Of a stretch of DNA of 64,000 nucleotides, positions 9,684-63,285 are shown piece after piece. How positions within the stretch are numbered: position 1 is the first letter of the stretch; each line of letters opens with the position of its first letter. The stretch comes from Dictyophora rubrovolvata. Taxonomy: Eukaryota; Basidiomycota; Agaricomycetes; Phallales; Phallaceae. The position numbers and the translations under genes are program-made. Location of the stretch: NCBI GenBank assembly GCA_029959195.1, contig CP114121.1, positions 1,240,001 to 1,304,000 of the forward strand. Reading direction: 5' to 3'. Under the pieces are notes generated by a model, which searched no databases, was not told the DNA's origin, and was given only the letters and a program-made list of their open reading frames with translations.

Positions 9684-11176
9684 AACTTGATCATCTATTA
9701 CACACCAGAGGGATAGTCTGGCATGACTAGGTCCCCCGCACTTTGTATTAGAACCAGGCTTTGTTGAAAGCTTGATGCTGTAGAACATAATGTATCATTA
9801 CTACTGAGCGTTAAATGTTAAACGTAACACTCAAAATCAATCGTAGTTGTGCATGATCTTATTGCAACAGGCCGCACATGGGACACGCACGCAACGGCCC
9901 CTTGTTGTATAAACTTGGATTGTGAAAAGATCTCATCGAAGCCTGCTTTAAAAGGGACTTTCGAGCGGCATCCGATGTACGGAAAGGCTAAAGCTTGGTA
10001 CGTGTTTTTACCGCTTGCGATTTGCTTTCTGCATTTAGATTTGGTCCTCATTATTGCACCATTAATTCTGTTAAGCGTATCACGAGAAAAGAATTGGTTC
10101 CAATTAAACGAAGAGTAGTATTACGTGTAATATAGTAAGCATAAATAATGCTAATTGAGTATAAACGAGCGGAAAAGACGTAATTGAGATGTGGACAGAC
10201 GAACAGAAGAAGAGTCACGAGTCTAGCAGAAGTTTCATTTTTGGCTACCACTTCAATCGGCGATAGTATATCGGAGCTTAAAATCAACGATGTCAAGCTT
10301 CAAGAACGTCGGAGATCTCGCCCGGCTTGAAGGCTTCAGAAAATTTGCCAGTTGCACGTTTGTGCGTTTCTGATCATTTATTGACATTCTCATGTTTCTA
10401 TAATCTGGTGTTCATATGATGTTTACGATTGTTTCCGACGCGACTACTTCTTGTCACTCGAGTCAGGCTGTCATTAATTGTATCGGCGGTTCGAGGGTGT
10501 GAAAGCCCGAGCAATCAACTCAATTGAGCCGACTTAACGAATTTTCGGTCTGAAGACATCTTTTATTACATTTTGGACAGATATCAAGATCGTTGCCCTC
10601 ATTAAGCTCGAGTTCCGATTCAAGCACTACTTTCCATTGCCTCATAGGCACCCATAAACCATTTTTGTCTAGCGATACCCCTAGGAAGTTCTACAACTTC
10701 CGTTTGATGACATTTGATAGTGAATAATCTACCACTTTCGCAATGGCGGCCTAGGTACCTACATCGATCTGGTACAGCTCATGTCGGCGATTATTCACTC
10801 AGACCTTGTGCTTCAAAGCCTTGGTACCTATTGTTATTTCAAGATTTATGGCAATAGGGATAGGGGAACAGGTACCCTCGAAAAACATTGATCAGAAAGC
10901 GCTGTGATATCAACCTGGTCATCGCCGGTCTGTCGGTTTTATTCTATCTCATGTCAGATTTTGAAATCGCTTGGTTCTAATTCGGAGTTGCGTCTTTCGA
11001 TGACAGGAAACAATACATTTCGCGTGTAATATGGGTACCAGCCCAATGCGAAGCATACGCCTTCATGGCCGATGTTTGCCGCGGTTATCCGGGATGACAC
11101 TGTCACTTCCAAGTTCTGACGGTTCTGGAGGATATAAAGCCAGAGTCCACCCCGGTATGTTACTGTAGACATTACC
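9684..11176. other. Intergenic region holding the Ppo copy 1 promoter and inverted-repeat arm edge
   Basis: No gene is recognised in about 1.5 kb. From about 10,595 onward the sequence is alignable, with about 75-80% identity by eye, to the reverse complement of the region upstream of the second Ppo copy (up to about 39,345). That marks the outer edge of the old duplication. A conserved TATA box closes the region. Confidence 0.6.
11133..11138 (+). promoter_or_regulatory. TATA box of Ppo copy 1
   Basis: TATAAA within GGAGGATATAAAGCC, 39 bases before the ATG. The same CTGGAGGATATAAAGCC string is kept before the second copy although the surroundings have diverged, which supports a real core promoter element. 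Confidence 0.65.
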
Positions 11177-14100
11177 ATGTCTAATGCCCTTGATTTCACT
11201 CAGACTGGCCTAGTCGTGAGTTGCGCTATCGAGCTTGCCGTCCTTGTCGCTATCTGACGCATATACCTCAGCAATTTGCAGACTTAGTTCACCTTACAGC
11301 GCGAGCTCCCCCCAAAGCACCCGATGGATATTATGACTATGAAGCCGACGGAACGGTAGCAAGTGGTCAAGATGATATGCATTCCAGGTTGTACAGTATT
11401 GCTCATGGTGCGCAAGAGCTTCTGAAGCCATGGCCACCACCAGACCCAAACTTGATTGTGGGTTCCTTAATTATGAATCTCATTTGTTATCGAGTACCCT
11501 TGTATATTCATTGATTGATTGATTGACAGGCCGGTGTCAACAGTTTGGTCCTGAGCCCGAACGCATTGGATGACCGCACATATGTGGTATATGCCGTTTC
11601 ATTATTGGTCAATACTTAGCCTGATAGTCTCGTAGTTCAATAAAGCTCTGTATGCCCTTTCAAGGATTCCTCCCGGCTCGGTACAGACTTCGCTCAATAA
11701 TGCTGTCATTAACATCCTCTACAATACGGTTCCTCATCCTCCAGCGACTTTCCAGGGAGATCAGCTCCGTAGTGCAGATGGTAGTAACAATGCTGTCAGT
11801 TATCCCAACCTTGGCAAAGCGGGTATGCCCTATGCTCGTAGTGTCCAGAACAAGAGACCTCAACCTGCTAATACCCTGCCCGACCCGGGGCTTATTTTCG
11901 ATACACTCCTTAAAGCTAGGGATGTACGTGGCGACTTTTAAATGTTGTTCGAGATTCCTAACCAATTCGTTACCATAAGTTCAAACCTCATCCAGGAAAC
12001 AACAGCTCCCTAACCTTCGCCTTCGCCTCCCTGGTCACTCACTCGCTCTTCCGCACCAACCTTTCCAACTGGAACATCAACAACACCTCCTCCTACCTCG
12101 ACCTCTCCATACTCTATGGCGAGAACCAAGACGCTCAAGACAAAGTGCGAGACAAATCTCAAGGTCGCGGACTTCTCTACCCCGACACTTTCTCTGAAGA
12201 CCGCTTCGGATTCGTACCTGCTGCTGCTTCTGCCCTCCTCGTGATCTTCTCGCGGAATCACAACTATATCGCTGATATGCTCCTGAAGATTAACGAGCGC
12301 AAACGCTGGACGAACCCGCCTCCAACCGACCCTACTGCCCTCGCCCAACAAGACGAGGAGATTTTCCAGACTGCACGTCTCGTCAATTGTGGTCACTTTA
12401 TGGCCGCTATATTCGGCGACTACGTCGCTGGTTTCCTTGGTTTGGGACGCGACGGTAATGCATGGTCGATGCAGCCGTTCGACGAGTTCACAGACTCGAA
12501 AGGCGACATCGTTCCGCGTGGACAAGGCAATCATGTCAGTGTCGAGTTCAATTTACTCTATCGCTGGCATGCAACGACTGCTGCAGAAGATATTACATGG
12601 ACGGATAACATGTTCAAGGGTGTCTTTGGTGCGAATGCAGATTTGGCTAGCGTGACGCCTGGAGACTTTGGGGCTGCAGCGAAGAATGCGTTGACCGCCG
12701 TAAACCCTGATCCCAAGACGCGCACGTTTGCAGGATTAAAGCGTGGACCTGATGGGACTTTCAGCGACGATGATCTAGCGAAAGTTTTGCAGGACGCAAC
12801 TGAGCATGTCGCAGGGGCATATCGCGCAAGGGGTATCCCCGAGTCGCTCCGCGTCATCGAAATTATGGCAATGCAGCAGGCGCGTCAATGGGGTGTTTGT
12901 ACCATGAATGAATTCAGGCGATTCTTGAAGCTGAAGCCGTTTAATGATTTTGAGGACTGGAACCCGGATCCAGTCATTGCCAATACGGCAAGACAGTTGT
13001 ATGATCATATCGAGAATTTGGAGCTGTACGTTGGTCTGCAAGCTGAACAGACTGAGGAATTAGGACCTGGAAGTGGGATTTGCTGTGGGTACGTTTAGTT
13101 CTTTTTCAAGTATTCCAAGACTATGAGCCCATTATGATATTCTGTTTAGCTTCACCATGACACGTGCAATCCTAGGTGACGCTATCGCCCTCGTCCGCGG
13201 TGACCGCTTCTACACTACCGACTATACACCAAATAACCTCACCTCATGGGGCTTCCAAGACTGTGCACGCGACCCAAACAACGGTGCCTTCGGGGCTGCC
13301 ATTCCCAAGCTACTCTTCCGTCACCTACCACGACACTATCCCGCCAACAGCGCCTATGCACTCTTCCCATTCTTTATACCCTCCGAGACGAAGAAGAATC
13401 TCACTAAGCTCGGGGTTGCAGCAAACTACGACTTTTCGCGTCCCAAGCCACAACCGATCCCGAAGGTCCTAACCACCCTCACTGGTATAAGGAACGTCTT
13501 CGCAAATAATAATACATTCAAGGTGATCTATGGTGCTGATATGGCGGCGCTGACGAACGGGTATGGATTTTTCCTTACATTCGATGACGAGAAGAGGCAC
13601 ACGGCGGATAAGGCGATATGCATGCGAGCATTGTGGCCGGACGCACAGACGGTATCGGACTATGTTACATGGTATAAGCAAACGACCACGAATCTCATCA
13701 AGCAGAAGTCTTTCTCATATGATGGTATACCTGGAAAGGTCGTGGACATTGTTAAGGACGTCATCAATCTTGTCAGCGTGCATTGGGCTGCCGACAAGCT
13801 CTGTGGTATCTCGCTCAAGACAGCTGATCAACCGCGTGGAACGTTTACGGAGCAAGAAGTGAATGATATGTTCAGTATTCTTTTCACGTGTGTATTCGAG
13901 AATATTTCGCCTGAGCACGGATGGTCCTTGCGTTCAGGTGCGGAGCAGGTAGCCGGGATCGTGAATGGGATCATCCAACAGAGTATCAACGAGGCAGCGC
14001 CGAGTGGCCTGGTGAGCGCCGTGGAGGGGCTGGGCGGACACATACTCTCTTTAGGACAACAAAAGGAGTGTTATCCATTTTTGAAAAGACTCGCGGCCAG

Positions 14101-15023
14101 TGGACGACCGATGAAAGATCTGGTGGCGTGCGTTATTGGATTGGCAGTCGGGTCTTCGGTCAATTACTCCCAAGGTAATAATAATAGATGTCTCTCTTAA
14201 GGTGATAATAGCTTATTCTTTCATAGCTTGTGCTCAAGTTCTTGACTTCTACCTCGATGACGCACGCGCCACCGAACGCGCCGCGCTCATCGACTTGTGC
14301 AAGAAAAGCGACGCGCAAAGTGCAGAACTACTTCGAGGCTATGTCCGCGAGGCCATGCGCCTCAACCCGCAGTTCGGCGGGCTATTCCGTGCTGCTGTTG
14401 CAGATGCGACTGTTCCTCAAGGCAAGGGATATCCAGATTTGCAAGTCAACCCGGGAGATTTGGTGTTTGCTAGCTTCAAGACTGCGAATCTGAATGTATG
14501 TCTCCTCATCTAGCATTTTGTCACGCCTTATTTTATTTGATGTCTGACACTCATACGTACATAGCCCAATGACTTCCCTAATCCTCAGACCGTTGACCCG
14601 ACCAGACCCAAGGATAGCTATCAACTTCAAGGCGCAGGCTTCCATAACTGTCCTGGAGTCGACTTCGTCGCTCAGGTACGTTAATGTCTATCTTTCTCCT
14701 TTCATTCATTCTAATATGCTGGTGTAATATATAGACTCTCCCTGAAATCATAAAGATCATCTTCAATTTGCCTAATCTCAGACGTGCACCGGCTCCACAA
14801 GGCGTGCTGGCTAGCTTCATAGATAGGCAGTTCGAGGTGAGGCAATCGGACTTGTGTTAGGGAATACTGCTCATTCATCCTTTTTAATAGACGGATAACG
14901 TAATGTACATAACATCGAGTGGCAATTGGGGACCGTGGCCTGGGTCGCTTTACGTCGTGGTATGCTCATGGTTTGTTCTTAGCGCAAATCTGTTCTGATG
15001 ACCCTTTTCAGTACGATGGTTGA
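11177..15023 (+). CDS. ppo: Ppo-type fatty-acid dioxygenase/P450 fusion, copy 1
   Basis: Eleven exons (11177-11215, 11272-11457, 11530-11586, 11636-11923, 11980-13088, 13150-14174, 14227-14495, 14565-14675, 14735-14836, 14891-14959, 15012-15023) give 1,088 residues, the usual Ppo length. The N-terminal haem peroxidase part shows the distal-His segment LTFAFASLVTHSLFRTN, SSYLDLSILYG and the catalytic Tyr/proximal-His motif EFNLLYRWHA. The C-terminal P450-like part shows GYVREAMRLNP (ExxR) and the haem-thiolate segment GFHNCPG with its Cys present, so both domains look active. Ppo enzymes oxygenate linoleic acid to hydroperoxides and rearrange them; in mushrooms they are linked to oxylipin signals and, by inference, to C8 volatiles such as 1-octen-3-ol. 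The first and last exons differ from copy 2, while the core is almost identical. Confidence 0.93.
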
Positions 15024-15726
15024 AAGTAGGCTCGAAATCACTCGCAAACTCTCATGCACAATAGTAATGCTTGCATCTATGCGGAATGTTTGTATTATAC
15101 TTTTTGGATTGAATAAAACCTGATCCTGGTCTGACATAAATATGCTTTAAACCCATAACTTGCAGTAGCCTGGTCGTATAAATCAAACCCATGTTTAATA
15201 GGCTTAGTGGATAAGGACAGCAGTCTGTAATAGAGATTGGGAAAGACGTTCAGCTGAAAAAAGTATGAAGACTTCTCCGTCGATAACAGTGGTAAAGGCA
15301 ATTTATAGCTTTGGCACGATCCGTCGACTATAGACGAGAATAAAATGACGGCCGCGAAGTGAGATCCTCGTGATCAAAATAAAACTCCAACTCTTCTACT
15401 ATTCCTCGCAGAATCTTAGTCGGCGATAGACCACACTAAATCTCATGGTCCCCTCCAGAAGATCAACTTGTCATTGAGCTGTTATCAATATTAACTCTAG
15501 ACCATGGGACAGCGGGGGTACGGAAAGCACATACCCCCAGGCGTACAAGCACTCGACGCTATTTAAACGATTTGAAAACTTATGAGTCTGAGGGGGAAAA
15601 ACAAGATGCATGGGTATTCTGTTAAAAGAGGTTCGCTGCCGGTATGTATTCTTCTGACGTGTTCCCCATCATTGCAAATTCAGCAGGACCTACAGTTATC
15701 CTGCCGGTCTTGATTCTCATCCAGAG
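15024..15726. other. Intergenic region, 3' flank of Ppo copy 1
   Basis: About 700 bases between the Ppo stop and the convergent pterin dehydratase stop. The first about 165 bases align in diverged form to the 3' flank of copy 2. An AATAAAA string at 15113 could serve 3'-end formation. Nothing else is recognised. Confidence 0.4.
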
Positions 15727-34484: not shown

Positions 34485-34903
34485 CGTAGATGCACGAACG
34501 AGTGCCAGTCACGGCCGTTGGCACATTACGTAGTCATTAAGCGCCCGAGTCGAACGATATTCGACGGAGAGATCCTCATACATACTTTGTTTGGTTGAAC
34601 GTCTTTTCCAATCTCTATTATAAAGTGCTATATTTATCCACAAAGTGCATTGATATATATATTAAACAGACCCCAATCAGACAACCCAGGAAAAGCAGCC
34701 CATCATCAGAGCTGCTCAGCTCGTAGACTCGGAGCTCGATCGAGAAGATAAGGTTGATACATATGTTTGACAACTTGGCTATTGCATATGTCGGACCGGG
34801 GTCAAATTTTATTTCCAAAAAAAAGTATAAAATGAATATATTTCACGTTAGATGCAAGCGTGACTATCGTACATGAGAGGTGAGTGAATTCGAGTTTACA
34901 AGT
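34485..34903. other. Intergenic, YSH1 promoter and Ppo copy 2 3' flank
   Basis: About 420 bases. The right part (about 34740-34903) aligns in diverged form to the 3' flank of Ppo copy 1. The left part must hold the YSH1 promoter; no clear box is seen. Confidence 0.4.
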
Positions 34904-37900
34904 TCAACCATCGTACTGAAAAGGGTCCTTAGAACAGATTTAAGCCTAAGAACGAGTCATGAACATACCATGACATAAAGCGATCCAGGCCACGGTCCCG
35001 CATTGCCACTCGACGTTATGTACGTCCTGTTGTCCGTCTAATGAAAAAATGAATGAGCAGTAGTCCCTAACACAAGGCCGATTGCCTCACCTCGAGCTGC
35101 CTATCTATGAAGCTAGCCAGCACACCCTGTGGAGTTGGTGCACGTCCGAGATTAGGCAGATTAAAGATGATCTTTATAATCTCAGGGAGGGTCTATATAC
35201 ACCATTAGAATGATGAGGGGGGAAGGATAGATGCCAACGTACCTGCGCAACGAAATCAACTCCAGGACAGTTATGGAAGCCTGCGCCTTGGAGTTGGTAG
35301 CTATCCTTTGGTCTGGTCGGGTTGACAGTCTGAGGATTGGGGAAGTCGTCGAGCTATGTACATAGGAGCGTCAGGCATCAACCAAAAAGGTATGACAACG
35401 CCAAATGAGGAGACATACGTTAAGATTCGCAGTCTGGAAACTAGCGAACAGCAAATCTCCCGCTTTGACCTGCAAATCTGGGTGTCCCGCGCCTTGAGAA
35501 ACAGTCGCATCTGCAACAGCAGCACGGAATAGCCCGCCGAACTGCGGGTTGAGGCGCATGGCCTCGCGGACATAGCCTCGAAGTAGTTCTGCACTTTGCG
35601 CGTCGCTTTTCTTGCACAAGTCGATGAGCGCGGCGCGTTCGGTGGCGCGTGCGTCATTGAGGTAGAAGTCAAGAACTTGAGCACAAGCTATGAAAGAATA
35701 AGCTATTATCACCTTAAGAGAGACATCTATTATTATTACCTTGGGAGTAATTGACCGAAGACCCGACTGCCAATCCAATAACGCACGCCACCAGATCTTT
35801 CATCGGTCGTCCACTGGCCGCGAGTCTCTTCAAGAATGGATAACACTCCTTCTGCTGTCCTAATGAGACTAAGTGTCCGCCTAGCCCTTCTACGGCCCTC
35901 AAGATACCATGGCCATGCGGCGCCGCTTCGTTGATGCTCTGTTCAATGATCTTGTTTACGATTGCCGCAACCTGCTCCGCGCCGGAACGCAAGGACCATC
36001 CGTGCTCAGGCTGAACATTCTCGAACACGCACGTAAAAAGAATACTGAACATATCATTCACTTCTTGCTCCGTAAACGTTCCACGCGGTTGATCAGCTGT
36101 CTTGAGCGAGATACCACAGAGCTTGTCGGCAGCCCAATGCACGCTGACAAGATTGATGACGTCCTTAACAATGTCCACGACCTTTCCAGGTATACCATCA
36201 TATGAGAAAGACTTCTGCTTGATGAGATTCGTGGTCGTTTGCTTATACCATGTAACATAGTCCGATACCGTCTGTGCGTCCGGCCACAATGCTCGCATGC
36301 ATATCGCCTTATCCGCCGTGTGCCTCTTCTCGTCATCGAATGTAAGGAAAAATCCATACCCGTTCGTCAGCGCCGCCATATCAGCACCATAGATCACCTT
36401 GAATGTATTATTATTTGCGAAGACGTTCCTTATACCAGTGAGGGTGGTTAGGACCTTCGGGATCGGTTGTGGCTTGGGACGCGAAAAGTCGTAGTTTGCT
36501 GCAACCCCGAGCTTAGTGAGATTCTTCTTCGTCTCGGAGGGTATAAAGAATGGGAAGAGTGCATAAGCGTTGTTGGCGGGATAGTGTCGTGGTAGGTGAC
36601 GGAAGAGTAGCTTGGGAATGGCAGCCCCGAAGGCACCGTTGTTTGGGTCGCGTGCACAGTCTTGGAAGCCCCATGAGGTGAGGTTATTTGGTGTATAGTC
36701 GGTAGTGTAGAAGCGGTCACCGCGGACGAGGGCGATAGCGTCACCTAGGATTGCACGTGTCATGGTGAAGCTAAACAGAATATCATAATGGGCTCATAGT
36801 CTTGGAATACTTGAAAAAGAACTAAACGTACCCACAGCAAATCCCACTTCCAGGTCCTAATTCCTCAGTCTGTTCAGCTTGCAGACCAACGTACAGCTCC
36901 AAATTCTCGATATGATCATACAACTGTCTTGCCGTATTGGCAATGACTGGATCCGGGTTCCAGTCCTCAAAATCATTAAACGGCTTCAGCTTCAAGAATC
37001 GCCTGAATTCATTCATGGTACAAACACCCCATTGACGCGCCTGCTGCATTGCCATAATTTCGATGACGCGGAGCGACTCGGGGATACCCCTTGCGCGATA
37101 TGCCCCTGCGACATGCTCAGTTGCGTCCTGCAAAACTTTCGCTAGATCATCGTCGCTGAAAGTCCCATCAGGTCCACGCTTTAATCCTGCAAACGTGCGC
37201 GTCTTGGGATCAGGGTTTACGGCGGTCAACGCATTCTTCGCTGCAGCCCCAAAGTCTCCAGGCGTCACGCTAGCCAAATCTGCATTCGCACCAAAGACAC
37301 CCTTGAACATGTTATCCGTCCATGTAATATCTTCTGCAGCAGTCGTTGCATGCCAGCGATAGAGTAAATTGAACTCGACACTGACATGATTGCCTTGTCC
37401 ACGCGGAACGATGTCGCCTTTCGAGTCTGTGAACTCGTCGAACGGCTGCATCGACCATGCATTACCGTCGCGTCCCAAACCAAGGAAACCAGCGACGTAG
37501 TCGCCGAATATAGCGGCCATAAAGTGACCACAATTGACGAGACGTGCAGTCTGGAAAATCTCCTCGTCTTGTTGGGCGAGGGCAGTAGGGTCGGTTGGAG
37601 GCGGGTTCGTCCAGCGTTTGCGCTCGTTAATCTTCAGGAGCATATCAGCGATATAGTTGTGATTCCGCGAGAAGATCACGAGGAGGGCAGAAGCAGCAGC
37701 AGGTACGAATCCGAAGCGGTCTTCAGAGAAAGTGTCGGGGTAGAGAAGTCCGCGACCTTGAGATTTGTCTCGCACTTTGTCTTGAGCGTCTTGGTTCTCA
37801 CCATAGAGTATGGAGAGGTCGAGGTAGGAGGAGGTGTTGTTGATGTTCCAGTTGGAAAGGTTGGTGCGGAAGAGCGAGTGAGTGACCAGGGAGGCGAAGG

Positions 37901-38757
37901 CGAAGGTTAGGGAGCTGTTGTTTCCTGGATGAGGTTTGAACTTATGGTAACGAATTGGTTAGGAATCTCGAACAACATTTAAAAGTCGCCACGTACATCC
38001 CTAGCTTTAAGGAGTGTATCGAAAATAAGCCCCGGGTCGGGCAGGGTATTAGCAGGTTGAGGTCTCTTGTTCTGGACACTACGAGCATAGGGCATACCCG
38101 CTTTGCCAAGGTTGGGATAATTGACAGCATTGTTACTACCATCTGCACTACGGAACTGATCTCCCTGGAAAGTCGCTGGAGGATGAGGAACCGTATTGTA
38201 GAGGATGTTAATGACAGCATTATTGAGCGAAGTCTGTACCGAGCCGGGAGGAATCCTTGAAAGGGCATACAGAGCTTTATTGAACTACGAGACTATCAGG
38301 CTAAATATTGGCCAACAATGAAGCGGCATATACCACATATGTGCGGTCATCCAATGCGTTCGGACTCAGGACCAAACTGTTGACACCGGCCTGTTAATCA
38401 ATCAATGAATATATAGATATAATGGCGCTCGACACCAGAATATAGCAGTAATTCAAATAAAAATCAAGGAACTCACAATCAATTTTGGGTCTGGTGGTGG
38501 CTGTGGCTTCAGAAGCTCTTGCGCACAATGAACGAGACTGTACAACCTGGAATGCATGTCTTTTTGACCACTTGCTACCGTTCCGTCGCCTTCATAGTCA
38601 TAATATCCATCAGGTGCTTTAGGGGGTGATCGCTCTTTAAGGTGAGCCAAGTCTGCAAATTCCTGAGGTATATACGTCAGGTAACGAGAAGGACAGTGAG
38701 CTTAATAGCGCAACTCACGACTAGGGGAGTTTGAGTAAAATCAAGGTTCTTTGACAT
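34904..38757 (-). CDS. ppo: Ppo-type fatty-acid dioxygenase/P450 fusion, copy 2
   Basis: Same eleven-exon layout as copy 1, about 1,090 residues (two more, in a loop reading HGHGILRAVEG instead of SGLVSAVEG). The peroxidase motif EFNLLYRWHA, the P450 ExxR helix and GFHNCPG are all intact. The exon encoding the peroxidase centre (complement of 36822-37775) is identical in protein to copy 1. Differences cluster at the ends: start MSKNLDFTQTP versus MSNALDFTQTG, KERSPP versus TARAPP, ATVSQGAGHPDLQVKAGD versus ATVPQGKGYPDLQVNPGD, and several residues in the last exons. Both proteins should therefore have the same peroxidase activity, while promoter and P450 tail may differ. It is transcribed toward YSH1, in tandem orientation with it. 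Confidence 0.92.
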
Positions 38758-40236
38758 GGTAAATGTCTACAGTGACATATCGAGGTGTGCCTCGGGCTTT
38801 ATATCCTCCAGAAACCCTCAGAACTTGGGGATGACAGTGTCATTCCGGACAACCGCGGATACTGTCGGCCATGAAACGTGTATGCTTTGCATTGGACTGG
38901 TTCACATATCACTATCAAAGGATAAATGTATTAATATTTCCTGTCATCGAAGGCCGCAATTTCCGAATTAGGGCTAGAGCCTTCAGAATTCGACATATGA
39001 TATAGGATAGTGGCGAGGACCAAAGCGCTGTTTTTAACAATGTGTTTCGACGGTGTTTCTTTCAATGTTGTTTCAAAAATTATGGCAATATGGATAGGGG
39101 AATGGCCAAGACCTGAAGCGGCGATTTGAAACACAGGTTCGGGGTGGTACGCGTTAAAATGATGACGCAACAAATAGCAGGAAGACCTACTGTTAAAGGT
39201 CCCTTCGTAAGTCCACGACTTCCGTTTAATAACACTTCTGAATTATCTACCATTTACTAAACAGAAATGGTGAATTACTCCGATAATGCTTACGAGACAA
39301 AGTAAAGTAGTGCTTGAATTGGAACTTTGATGAGGGCAATAACCTAGAGTGCTGTACAAAACGCGTGGAGAGCCAATGTAATAGGAGAGGACCTCGGCCC
39401 CATTGATGAGATCCCTGACCGAGGAAAGTTTATGGGGTGAATCGAGATGCTTGTTCAGGTTTCCATGCCCATCGTCGCCAATTATGTAACTAATATACTA
39501 CTCTTCGCTCGAGCCAATTCTTTTCTCATACACCTAACAAAGCTAACGGTGATGCAATAAGGGCCAAAAACTAATAAATACAGAAGGCGATAAGACGTCA
39601 GGAAGGTCAAATCGCAAGCGGTAAAAACACGTACCAAGCTTTCCGTGCATCGAATGCAGCTTTAAGTCACATACCATGGGGTGATTCGAACGCTGGTAAT
39701 AACACCGAGGATCAAAAACATTTCATGCGTGGTTCCATTGTCCATACTACCGCCCGGTCGTATCACCGGTGCAGCTGCAAAGCCCGACTTCGACCGAGAC
39801 GTCGTGGTGTAAAAACTTCAAAAAAGTACCTTGTTCTGACGTTAGCCAGCTTTGTTCATGCCTTTATATAAATATAAAACTATAAATACATTCGTCTCAA
39901 AAATGCGATGTATATGCGCCACTCCGGGTTGTCAACACAAGAAAAACAAACCACCTCCTATCTCTAGGAAGGGTGAGAGCAATACGGTGATGAAGGACAG
40001 CGACCTCATAACGGAACCAAACCTAACTTGAACGATAAGCTAGAAGTTTTCTTACAAGTTTGACGAAACTTGCGGTCTATGTATATACTACACATGTAAT
40101 TTTGCGTTTACAGAAGGGATTATATGCCTCAATTCGGGATTCTAGAATGCAGAATTGGTCGGAATTGGATGGGGTGGGACGATACGCTAGTAGCCGCGAA
40201 CAAGGTCAGCATCGCGCGCTAAGGCGCTAAACTCCT
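38758..40236. other. Intergenic region upstream of Ppo copy 2 and ARFRP1
   Basis: A divergent 1.5-kb spacer. The first about 590 bases are the diverged counterpart of the copy 1 promoter region. The remainder (39350-40236) has no recognisable coding sequence, repeat or RNA gene. Confidence 0.45.
38798..38803 (-). promoter_or_regulatory. TATA box of Ppo copy 2
   Basis: TATAAA on the - strand, inside the same CTGGAGGATATAAAGCC string as copy 1, about 40 bases before the ATG at 38757. Confidence 0.65.
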
Positions 40237-62032: not shown

Positions 62033-63285
62033 ACTTGAAGGGGGCTTGCCAATATTAAAGAACGTGAGCAAAATAATGAAAGAAGGAGGGAGATTATAGA
62101 GAACGAAATCGAATACTCCAGATTTATATACCTACACCTGGCTGGGTTCGAAAACAAAATCTTGAGAAAACGAAAAAGTAGGAAGATGACACAAGGCGAT
62201 ATCCAACGCATTTTCAGACAAAACACACAAACTCATACCTGGATTAGATTATTAAAATAGCATATATTCCAATTTACGCAACATCAATTTTTTTGCGAGG
62301 AGACGTATACCACTGGTGGGGATAAAGTGGAATTCCTAGAACAGTGGTGAGCTCGGAACAAGCTCGCAACTTGCCGGGTCAACAATTGTCAATAAGCCAG
62401 AGTTATTCGACAATATGCAACTTGGTGGCAGCTCCAATTACTAGCAAAAATGATTAGTGAGTAAATCACGGATAACGATTTTTCACCAGGGCGAGTGAAA
62501 CAACAGCTTACTATTAACTCGATCGTGATCTGGTGACAATACCCTACTAATAGGTGTACCTTGCCAAATCCCGCGTAAAGTTTGTTTTCAGTGGTGTGAA
62601 TAAAGTCCGTAAAGTCTAAATTTTGTCAATCAATGCTTTCTTGTGTTATCTTCGAACATAATATGGATTGAACGTATGGCCGTTCTGTTTAAGCACGACC
62701 GAATGAAGTTGAGACTGAAGAACACACTATGAACGTCGCCTGAGTGTAATTTATTTCTTCTGAAAAAGAGATGAATTCATCCTAAAGAGTAAACAACACA
62801 CCACGGTCGAGAATGTTGAACGTGAATGTCACGTTTGACATTTAGTTCTAACTACTGGAAGCAAACGTCCATAAGGTCGCCTTTGTCAAGCTGTCCGTCG
62901 TCCCAAAAGACCTTGGACACGGGTGTTATTCGGACACATACCAGCCTTCAGAATGCGGCATTTCAGATAACAGATAGTAGGCTAATGAACGCTTTGGGAA
63001 CATTTCCCGGCTTTCCTTTGTCTTTCTGGCTTCAGACAGAGTCAAACAGAGGAAAAGTTGCTGTCAGACAAAGGAAAGGGTAAAGTCCTTAGCTTGTTCA
63101 TTATCCACAGAAATGCGTCCAGATAATGCCAGTGTCCAAGGTCTTTCGGGACAATGGATAGAGTGACAAGAGTGACCATGTCCTACTAGTGCCGCCGTTT
63201 GCTCCAGTGTACAATCGTTGTCAGACCGGGATGAGCTGAGTTTCAAACTTGTCGAACCATCCATACACTTGCCATACACGCAGCA
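62033..63285. other. Intergenic, divergent promoters, nothing recognised
   Basis: About 1.25 kb between the divergent Ser/Thr-rich and SLU7 genes. A TTTATATA box near 62122 precedes the secreted-protein gene by about 90 bases. Small open frames on both strands (for example 62826-63083) have no recognisable sequence. Confidence 0.4.

Follow-up and report, generated by a model that had tools for sequence, protein, structure and literature searches.

The window, by which we mean the whole stretch of 64,000 nucleotides analyzed here, contains two intact Ppo-type genes, copies A and B, which are inverted relative to each other and whose facing ends lie ∼19.9 kb apart. Both genes were spliced by hand, and in both the models gave GT..AG introns and no internal stop.

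11177..15023, + strand: copy A, intact Ppo-type gene, 11 exons, 1,087 aa (hand-made splice model)
11177-11215, 11272-11457, 11530-11583, 11636-11923, + strand: copy A, exons 1-4 (hand-made splice model)
11980-13088, 13150-14174, 14227-14495, 14565-14675, + strand: copy A, exons 5-8 (hand-made splice model)
14735-14836, 14891-14959, 15012-15023, + strand: copy A, exons 9-11 (hand-made splice model)
34904..38757, - strand: copy B, intact inverted paralog, 11 exons, 1,089 aa (hand-made splice model)

A Pfam scan of copy A matched PF03098 (An_peroxidase, E 2.4e-33) and PF00067 (p450, E 1.2e-5, with 24.8 bits where the cut-off is 22.8), while copy B was assessed by its motifs. YRWH, starting at residue 383, THSLF (209), the ExxR motif (in REAMR) and the P450 heme motif GFHNCPG are present in each copy, as a preliminary description of this DNA had said of the catalytic motifs. 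Ppo is a fair family name, since the source names of homologs include linoleate 8R-lipoxygenase and psi-producing oxygenase, and, judged from their sequence, both genes are predicted to encode a fatty-acid heme dioxygenase fused to a P450-type domain, with a predicted role in linoleate oxidation. The same arrangement of an N-terminal heme dioxygenase and a C-terminal P450-related domain is described for CcDOX1 and CcDOX2 of Coprinopsis cinerea (PMC9579011), where Tyr-395/His-398 are reported as catalytic residues; by likeness to this pair, the Tyr and His of YRWH are likely the catalytic Tyr and the heme His (PMC9579011). In CcDOX1 and CcDOX2 the His and Cys of the P450 heme signature are reportedly replaced, and members of subclade c have the complete motif (PMC9579011). 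Unlike CcDOX1 and CcDOX2 as reported there, the Ppo copies retain both residues (QGAGFHNCPG), with Q in both copies at the first F of the published FxxGx(H/R)xCxG (PMC9579011), and by motif alone the pair resembles subclade c of that report.

In a protein search that scored at least 7,995 candidates and found at least 1,171 homologs, the best match among the best 120 listed was the Sphaerobolus stellatus protein P0001 (1,087 aa, 81% identity over 100%), the one protein with a Sphaerobolus name among those 120 of at least 1,171. Other Ppo-like matches in the same genome, with 27-57% identity to this protein, lie on contigs C6 and C8. In the spacer between the two genes, 10 reading frames were scanned, of which 4 match Pfam families: one is mevalonate diphosphate decarboxylase-like, one is beta-CASP metallo-beta-lactamase-like, and two are pieces of one Ctf4/Mcl1-like gene.

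Remnants of homology in inverted register are found upstream of both genes (9964-10024 with 39608-39661, and 10571-10650 with 39287-39361), and this sequence evidence suggests that the duplicated unit originally extended at least ∼1.2 kb upstream of the start codon. Also upstream of both genes is a 37-bp stretch (10832-10868 and 39066-39102, 89% identical) that has the same orientation despite the inverted arms; its direction with respect to the gene is thus reversed in one arm, and it may perhaps be a promoter element common to both genes or the trace of a minor local inversion. Elsewhere in the window, 62875-62939 and 63113-63177 form a 65-bp inverted repeat, 77% identical, with a spacer of ∼170 bp.

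Near-identical tracts, their borders and the local background

When copy A was aligned with the reverse complement of copy B, the pair was found to be a mosaic of two near-identical tracts, a diverged patch between them, and diverged flanks on either side.

10940..11615, + strand: copy A, diverged 5' flank (promoter side, exons 1-3)
38305..39009, - strand: copy B, diverged 5' flank (alignment with copy A)
11616..13884, + strand: copy A, main conversion tract (codons ∼94-803, introns 4 and 5, end of intron 3)
36036..38304, - strand: copy B, main conversion tract (reverse complement aligned to the copy A tract)
13885..14086, + strand: copy A, unconverted patch (202 bp; 36 substitutions and a 6-bp gap relative to B; dS 0.81)
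35828..36035, - strand: copy B, unconverted patch (pairs with A 13885-14086)
14087..14414, + strand: copy A, second conversion tract (codons ∼872-963, intron 6; 1 mismatch in 328 bp)
35500..35827, - strand: copy B, second conversion tract (pairs with A 14087-14414)
14415..15138, + strand: copy A, diverged 3' flank (end of exon 7 to exon 11, 3' end)
34787..35499, - strand: copy B, diverged 3' flank (alignment with copy A)

The two arms of the main tract, 11616-13884 and the reverse complement of 36036-38304, are each 2,269 bp long and differ by 5 mismatches (at 11765, 11799, 12120, 13350 and 13354), all 5 of them transitions and 2 of the 5 silent. These coordinates and the equal length of the arms had been given exactly in the preliminary description, and the differing sites it placed near 11799, 12120 and 13350-13355 are real, but its count of 4 has to be raised to 5, since 11765 was overlooked. 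Overlooked as well was the renewed identity at 14087-14414, past the diverged patch at 13885-14086.

A two-state HMM applied to 10950-15138 returned 11616-13884 and 14087-14414 as its low-divergence segments, with rates of 0.25% and 17.7% in the two states and lnL of -818 (Viterbi path), compared with -1049 for a single rate. Flank identity, measured in 100-bp windows, is 77-93% over 11001-11600 and 81-91% over 14401-15100, and homology fades beyond, so that an earlier figure of 75-85% for the flanks is roughly correct near the tract. The right border of the main tract is abrupt, while the left border is softer, with 4 mismatches in the 59 bp of 11557-11615; the sharp borders first described hold at the right edge. 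The soft left border and the lower synonymous divergence of the 5' flank (dS 0.18, compared with 0.48 in the 3' flank) could possibly reflect an older partial conversion there.

The placement of the differences was also compared with chance. In the gene region, 226 columns differ between A and B, and the longest gap between differences is 1,230 bp, whereas the longest gap was 260 bp when the differing positions were placed at random in 20,000 runs, with columns at one shared A position counted once.

For tract 1 (711 codons) the synonymous divergence between A and B, calculated by the Nei-Gojobori method, was 0.006, and for tract 2 (92 codons) it was 0; by contrast, the values for the 5' flank (93 codons), the patch (67 codons) and the 3' flank (124 codons) were 0.18, 0.81 and 0.48. 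The true value for tract 1 is lower than 0.006, because one of the three silent differences counted comes from a codon straddling the right border. Outside the tracts dN/dS pairs were 0.09/0.18 (5' flank), 0.10/0.81 (patch) and 0.07/0.48 (3' flank). The introns gave a matching picture, and here the identical introns of the preliminary description were borne out: those lying wholly within the tracts (4, 5 and 6) differ at 0 of 169 sites, compared with 66 of 348 aligned sites in those lying wholly outside (1, 2, 7, 8, 9 and 10; Fisher p 6e-13), with intron 3, which is cut by the border and has 4 differences in 52, excluded from the count. Near-identity is thus bounded, with divergence outside it (HMM segments, dS contrast), and it reaches the near-neutral sites, intronic and silent, both of which are expected of ectopic gene conversion.

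Searched against its own genome (28.24 Mb, 11 contigs), the main tract was found in 2 places, both on contig C5, which is 2.75 Mb long and carries both arms. At the DNA level, this search of 28.24 Mb in 11 contigs revealed no third copy that could have been the donor, and the other Ppo-like genes, on C6 and C8, were rejected as donors because they are merely 27-57% identical.

The local background was evaluated by a self-BLAST of 264 kb of C5 (200 kb plus the window; pairs of at least 150 bp, E up to 1e-10), which gave 70 pairs, the Ppo pair included. A dense repeat cluster lies at C5 ∼1062000-1104000 (∼22-64 kb of the 264-kb stretch), ∼150-190 kb from the Ppo pair, and from the pattern of its matches it probably consists of mobile elements. 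Two repeat pairs in this cluster on the same contig are 97-98% identical over 2.3-3.0 kb, so near-identity is not unique to the Ppo pair, and with such pairs present elsewhere on the contig we do not claim that it is rare in this genome. Among 4 pairs profiled outside the repeat cluster, the longest gap between differences was 108 bp. One of these 4 is a second set of linked inverted paralogs, at C5 ∼1129800-1132500 and 1145300-1147900, ∼13 kb apart and 82.6% identical over 2.67 kb; its identity climbs to 91-98% over ∼600 bp, with 98% as the highest value of any 100-bp window, and then drops, with no sharp plateau, and its longest gap is 85 bp.

Conservation in relatives and competing explanations

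Copy A is 77.2% identical to P0001 in the 5' flank, 80.5% in tract 1, 77.6% in the patch, 87.0% in tract 2 and 83.1% in the 3' flank, and the corresponding values for copy B are 70.7, 80.5, 74.6, 85.9 and 79.0%. Measured against P0001, tract 1 is therefore conserved to much the same degree as the flanks of A, and to a slightly higher degree than those of B. Between A and B themselves, protein identity is 99.6% in the core and 84-86% in the flanks and patch. On a fixed tree of 61 sequences (A and B plus 59 homologs, namely P0001-P0060 with P0058 excluded; none was lost to the length filter), from which columns with at least 20% gaps had been removed, leaving 799 in the tracts and 279 outside, the A-B distance was 0.005 within the tracts and 0.177 outside. 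Bootstrapped A-B protein distances, normalized to 12 homologs, were 0.012 (95% 0.003-0.025) and 0.235 (95% 0.169-0.313), respectively. At the protein level, then, the identity of A and B in the tracts goes beyond the constraint seen against outgroups, whether 4 homologs, 59 homologs, or P0001 plus 12 homologs are used. The flank tree and the core tree both join A and B as sisters with 100% bootstrap, and the clade of A, B and P0001 also has 100% bootstrap. The duplication therefore appears younger than the split from Sphaerobolus, as judged from one Sphaerobolus protein. By the same comparisons, the overwrite came long after the duplication.

Several explanations of the mosaic other than gene conversion were weighed. 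The near-identical core contains the dioxygenase catalytic center, and might simply be the most conserved part of the enzyme, kept identical by purifying selection; across the family its conservation does exceed that of the N-terminus (71% in the core and 45% in the 5' flank between homologs P0001 and P0002), and its 80.5% identity to P0001 is somewhat above that of B's flanks (71-79%). However, 80.5% is close to the values of A's flanks, and because the same core is merely 80.5% identical to the S. stellatus protein, constraint cannot account for 99.6% identity between A and B. The introns are also identical and the silent sites nearly so, and on the fixed tree P0001 is farther away in the tracts than elsewhere: scaled to the mean among 25 other homologs, its distance is 0.36 there, compared with 0.21 (A) and 0.27 (B) outside them. 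We give purifying selection practically no credence, and the preliminary argument against selection on the protein stands, on the identical introns, the tract dS of 0.006 and 0, and the 80.5% identity of the core to P0001. Near-identical repeats are a weak point of assemblies, and the core of one arm might have been collapsed or mis-copied into the other; but a copied consensus would be identical, and here there are 6 dispersed differences, 4 of which change an amino acid, along with a diverged patch between two near-identical tracts. The contiguity of the assembly (a contig of 2.75 Mb, with 11 contigs for 28 Mb) suggests that long reads were used, and with these observations an artefact appears very improbable.

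A near-identical core with diverged flanks would likewise result from a young gene duplication in which flanks and patch were later replaced from other paralogs or alleles. This course would require at least three separate imports into one gene pair (5' flank, patch and 3' flank), the other Ppo-like matches on C6 and C8 (27-57% identical) are unfit as donors, and outside the tracts the nearest relative of each copy is the other copy (100% support), all of which makes such a history hardly conceivable. Of the explanations considered, a recent ectopic gene conversion between inverted paralogs of older origin accounts for the mosaic best by far, and we put its probability at roughly 93%. It is also the reading proposed in the preliminary description, and the HMM borders, the identical introns, the near-zero dS inside and the ordinary divergence outside uphold it.

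Probable course and direction of the conversion

We infer the repair mechanism, its timing and its completion in a single event as follows. An ancestral Ppo gene would have been duplicated to an inverted pair after the split from the Sphaerobolus lineage, and the copies would have diverged over a long time, to a silent divergence of ∼0.2-0.8 outside the tracts. Much later, with ∼1-2% of that divergence still to come, a break may have occurred in one copy and been repaired with the inverted sister ∼20 kb away as template, so that 2.27 kb and 0.33 kb were overwritten. A single repair event spanning ∼2.8 kb could have left the 202-bp patch unconverted if heteroduplex was resolved unevenly. Had there been a crossover, it would have inverted the spacer.

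One event is the simplest course because the residual divergences of the tracts are alike (5/2269 and 1/328). Two or more separate conversions (tract 1, tract 2, and perhaps an older one in the 5' flank) are nearly as likely: a patch with dS of 0.81 divides the tracts, and the dS of the 5' flank (0.18) is lower than that of the 3' flank (0.48), while the similar divergence of the tracts (p 0.56) speaks against separate events with low power, there being 1 difference in the short tract.

Conversion might also be recurrent and favored by selection, with a shared dioxygenase core and ExxR P450 region while promoters, N-termini, patch and C-terminus diverge; if so, the pair would evolve as a single catalytic core with two regulatory and tail variants. 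We regard this as unlikely. The suggestion, made in the preliminary description, that conversion maintains an intact peroxidase center gains no support over a neutral event, as the copies are intact and dN is lower than dS outside the tracts as well.

The differences that remain within the tracts, including 14256 in tract 2, are transitions in 6 of 6 cases, copy A having C/G and copy B T/A each time (two-sided p 0.03), and 4 of the 6 change an amino acid. Symmetric mutation after conversion does not predict such a one-sided C/G to T/A pattern, which counts against a simple conversion account. Classical RIP has a CpA pattern. RIP-like mutation was rejected, since the changed C precedes T in 4 of 6 cases and G in 2 of 6 (by eye) and so is not in CpA. 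When sites were polarized with 4 outgroup proteins, the outgroups carried F or Y at 11765, favoring the B state as ancestral, and at 14256 they favored the A state, while the remaining four sites were silent or gave no clear state; because of 11765, decay of B alone does not account for the pattern.

Three approaches to the direction of conversion gave conflicting answers. The polarized tract sites point both ways, one to each copy. Relative distances were 0.51 in the tracts (95% 0.45-0.59) and, outside, 0.35 for A (0.28-0.43) and 0.44 for B (0.35-0.54), which leans toward B as donor. Branch lengths outside the tracts were 0.131 for B and 0.048 for A, and the A/B stem within the tracts (0.127) was about equal to the P0001 branch (0.128), which leans toward A, the slower copy. 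Outside the tracts, A matches the outgroup residue at 21 sites and B at 8 (p 0.024). As the distance test and the branch test disagree, we name no donor.

Comparison with known systems

In the Ppo pair, ectopic conversion can be followed base by base in a natural basidiomycete case: the paralogs are inverted and lie ∼20 kb apart, and the two converted tracts enclose a patch that was left unconverted. For such pairs whole-gene trees and dates are misleading, because the distance blends a duplication that is old and an overwrite that is recent. If isolates were resequenced, the pair could be used as a direct test of tract structure, donor bias and conversion rate in these fungi. A literature search combining psi-producing oxygenase, basidiomycete and gene duplication gave no match, and we make no claim that the case is unpublished.

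The pair is a clean further case of a known process, ectopic conversion between inverted paralogs. In Drosophila, Hsp70Aa/Ab, Hsp70Ba/Bb and Amy-p/Amy-d are described as palindromic pairs homogenized by ectopic gene conversion, and it has been proposed that the palindromic layout may limit copy-number change via crossing over (PMC3924832). Like the Hsp70 and Amy pairs reported there, the Ppo copies are linked, inverted and homogenized (PMC3924832). For the Drosophila pairs, however, ongoing conversion is reported from several species and from shared polymorphism (PMC3924832), while the Ppo pair presents one recent mosaic, in a single fungal genome, with the copies ∼19.9 kb apart. Caenorhabditis also has converting inverted paralogs, among the reported examples the hsp16-48 modules and an adjacent inverted hsp70 pair (PMC3966223), and the Ppo genes share with them conversion between linked inverted duplicates (PMC3966223); the hsp16-48 modules are given as 416 bp apart (PMC3966223), whereas the Ppo spacer is ∼19.9 kb long and holds unrelated genes. 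Among filamentous fungi, recursive ectopic gene conversion between paralogs in one region is described for Aspergillus flavus/oryzae (PMC12844118), and the Ppo pair is similar in that paralogs of a filamentous fungus undergo ectopic conversion (PMC12844118). In the Aspergillus case, as reported, gene splitting, loss and raised mutation accompany conversion (PMC12844118), whereas both Ppo copies are intact.
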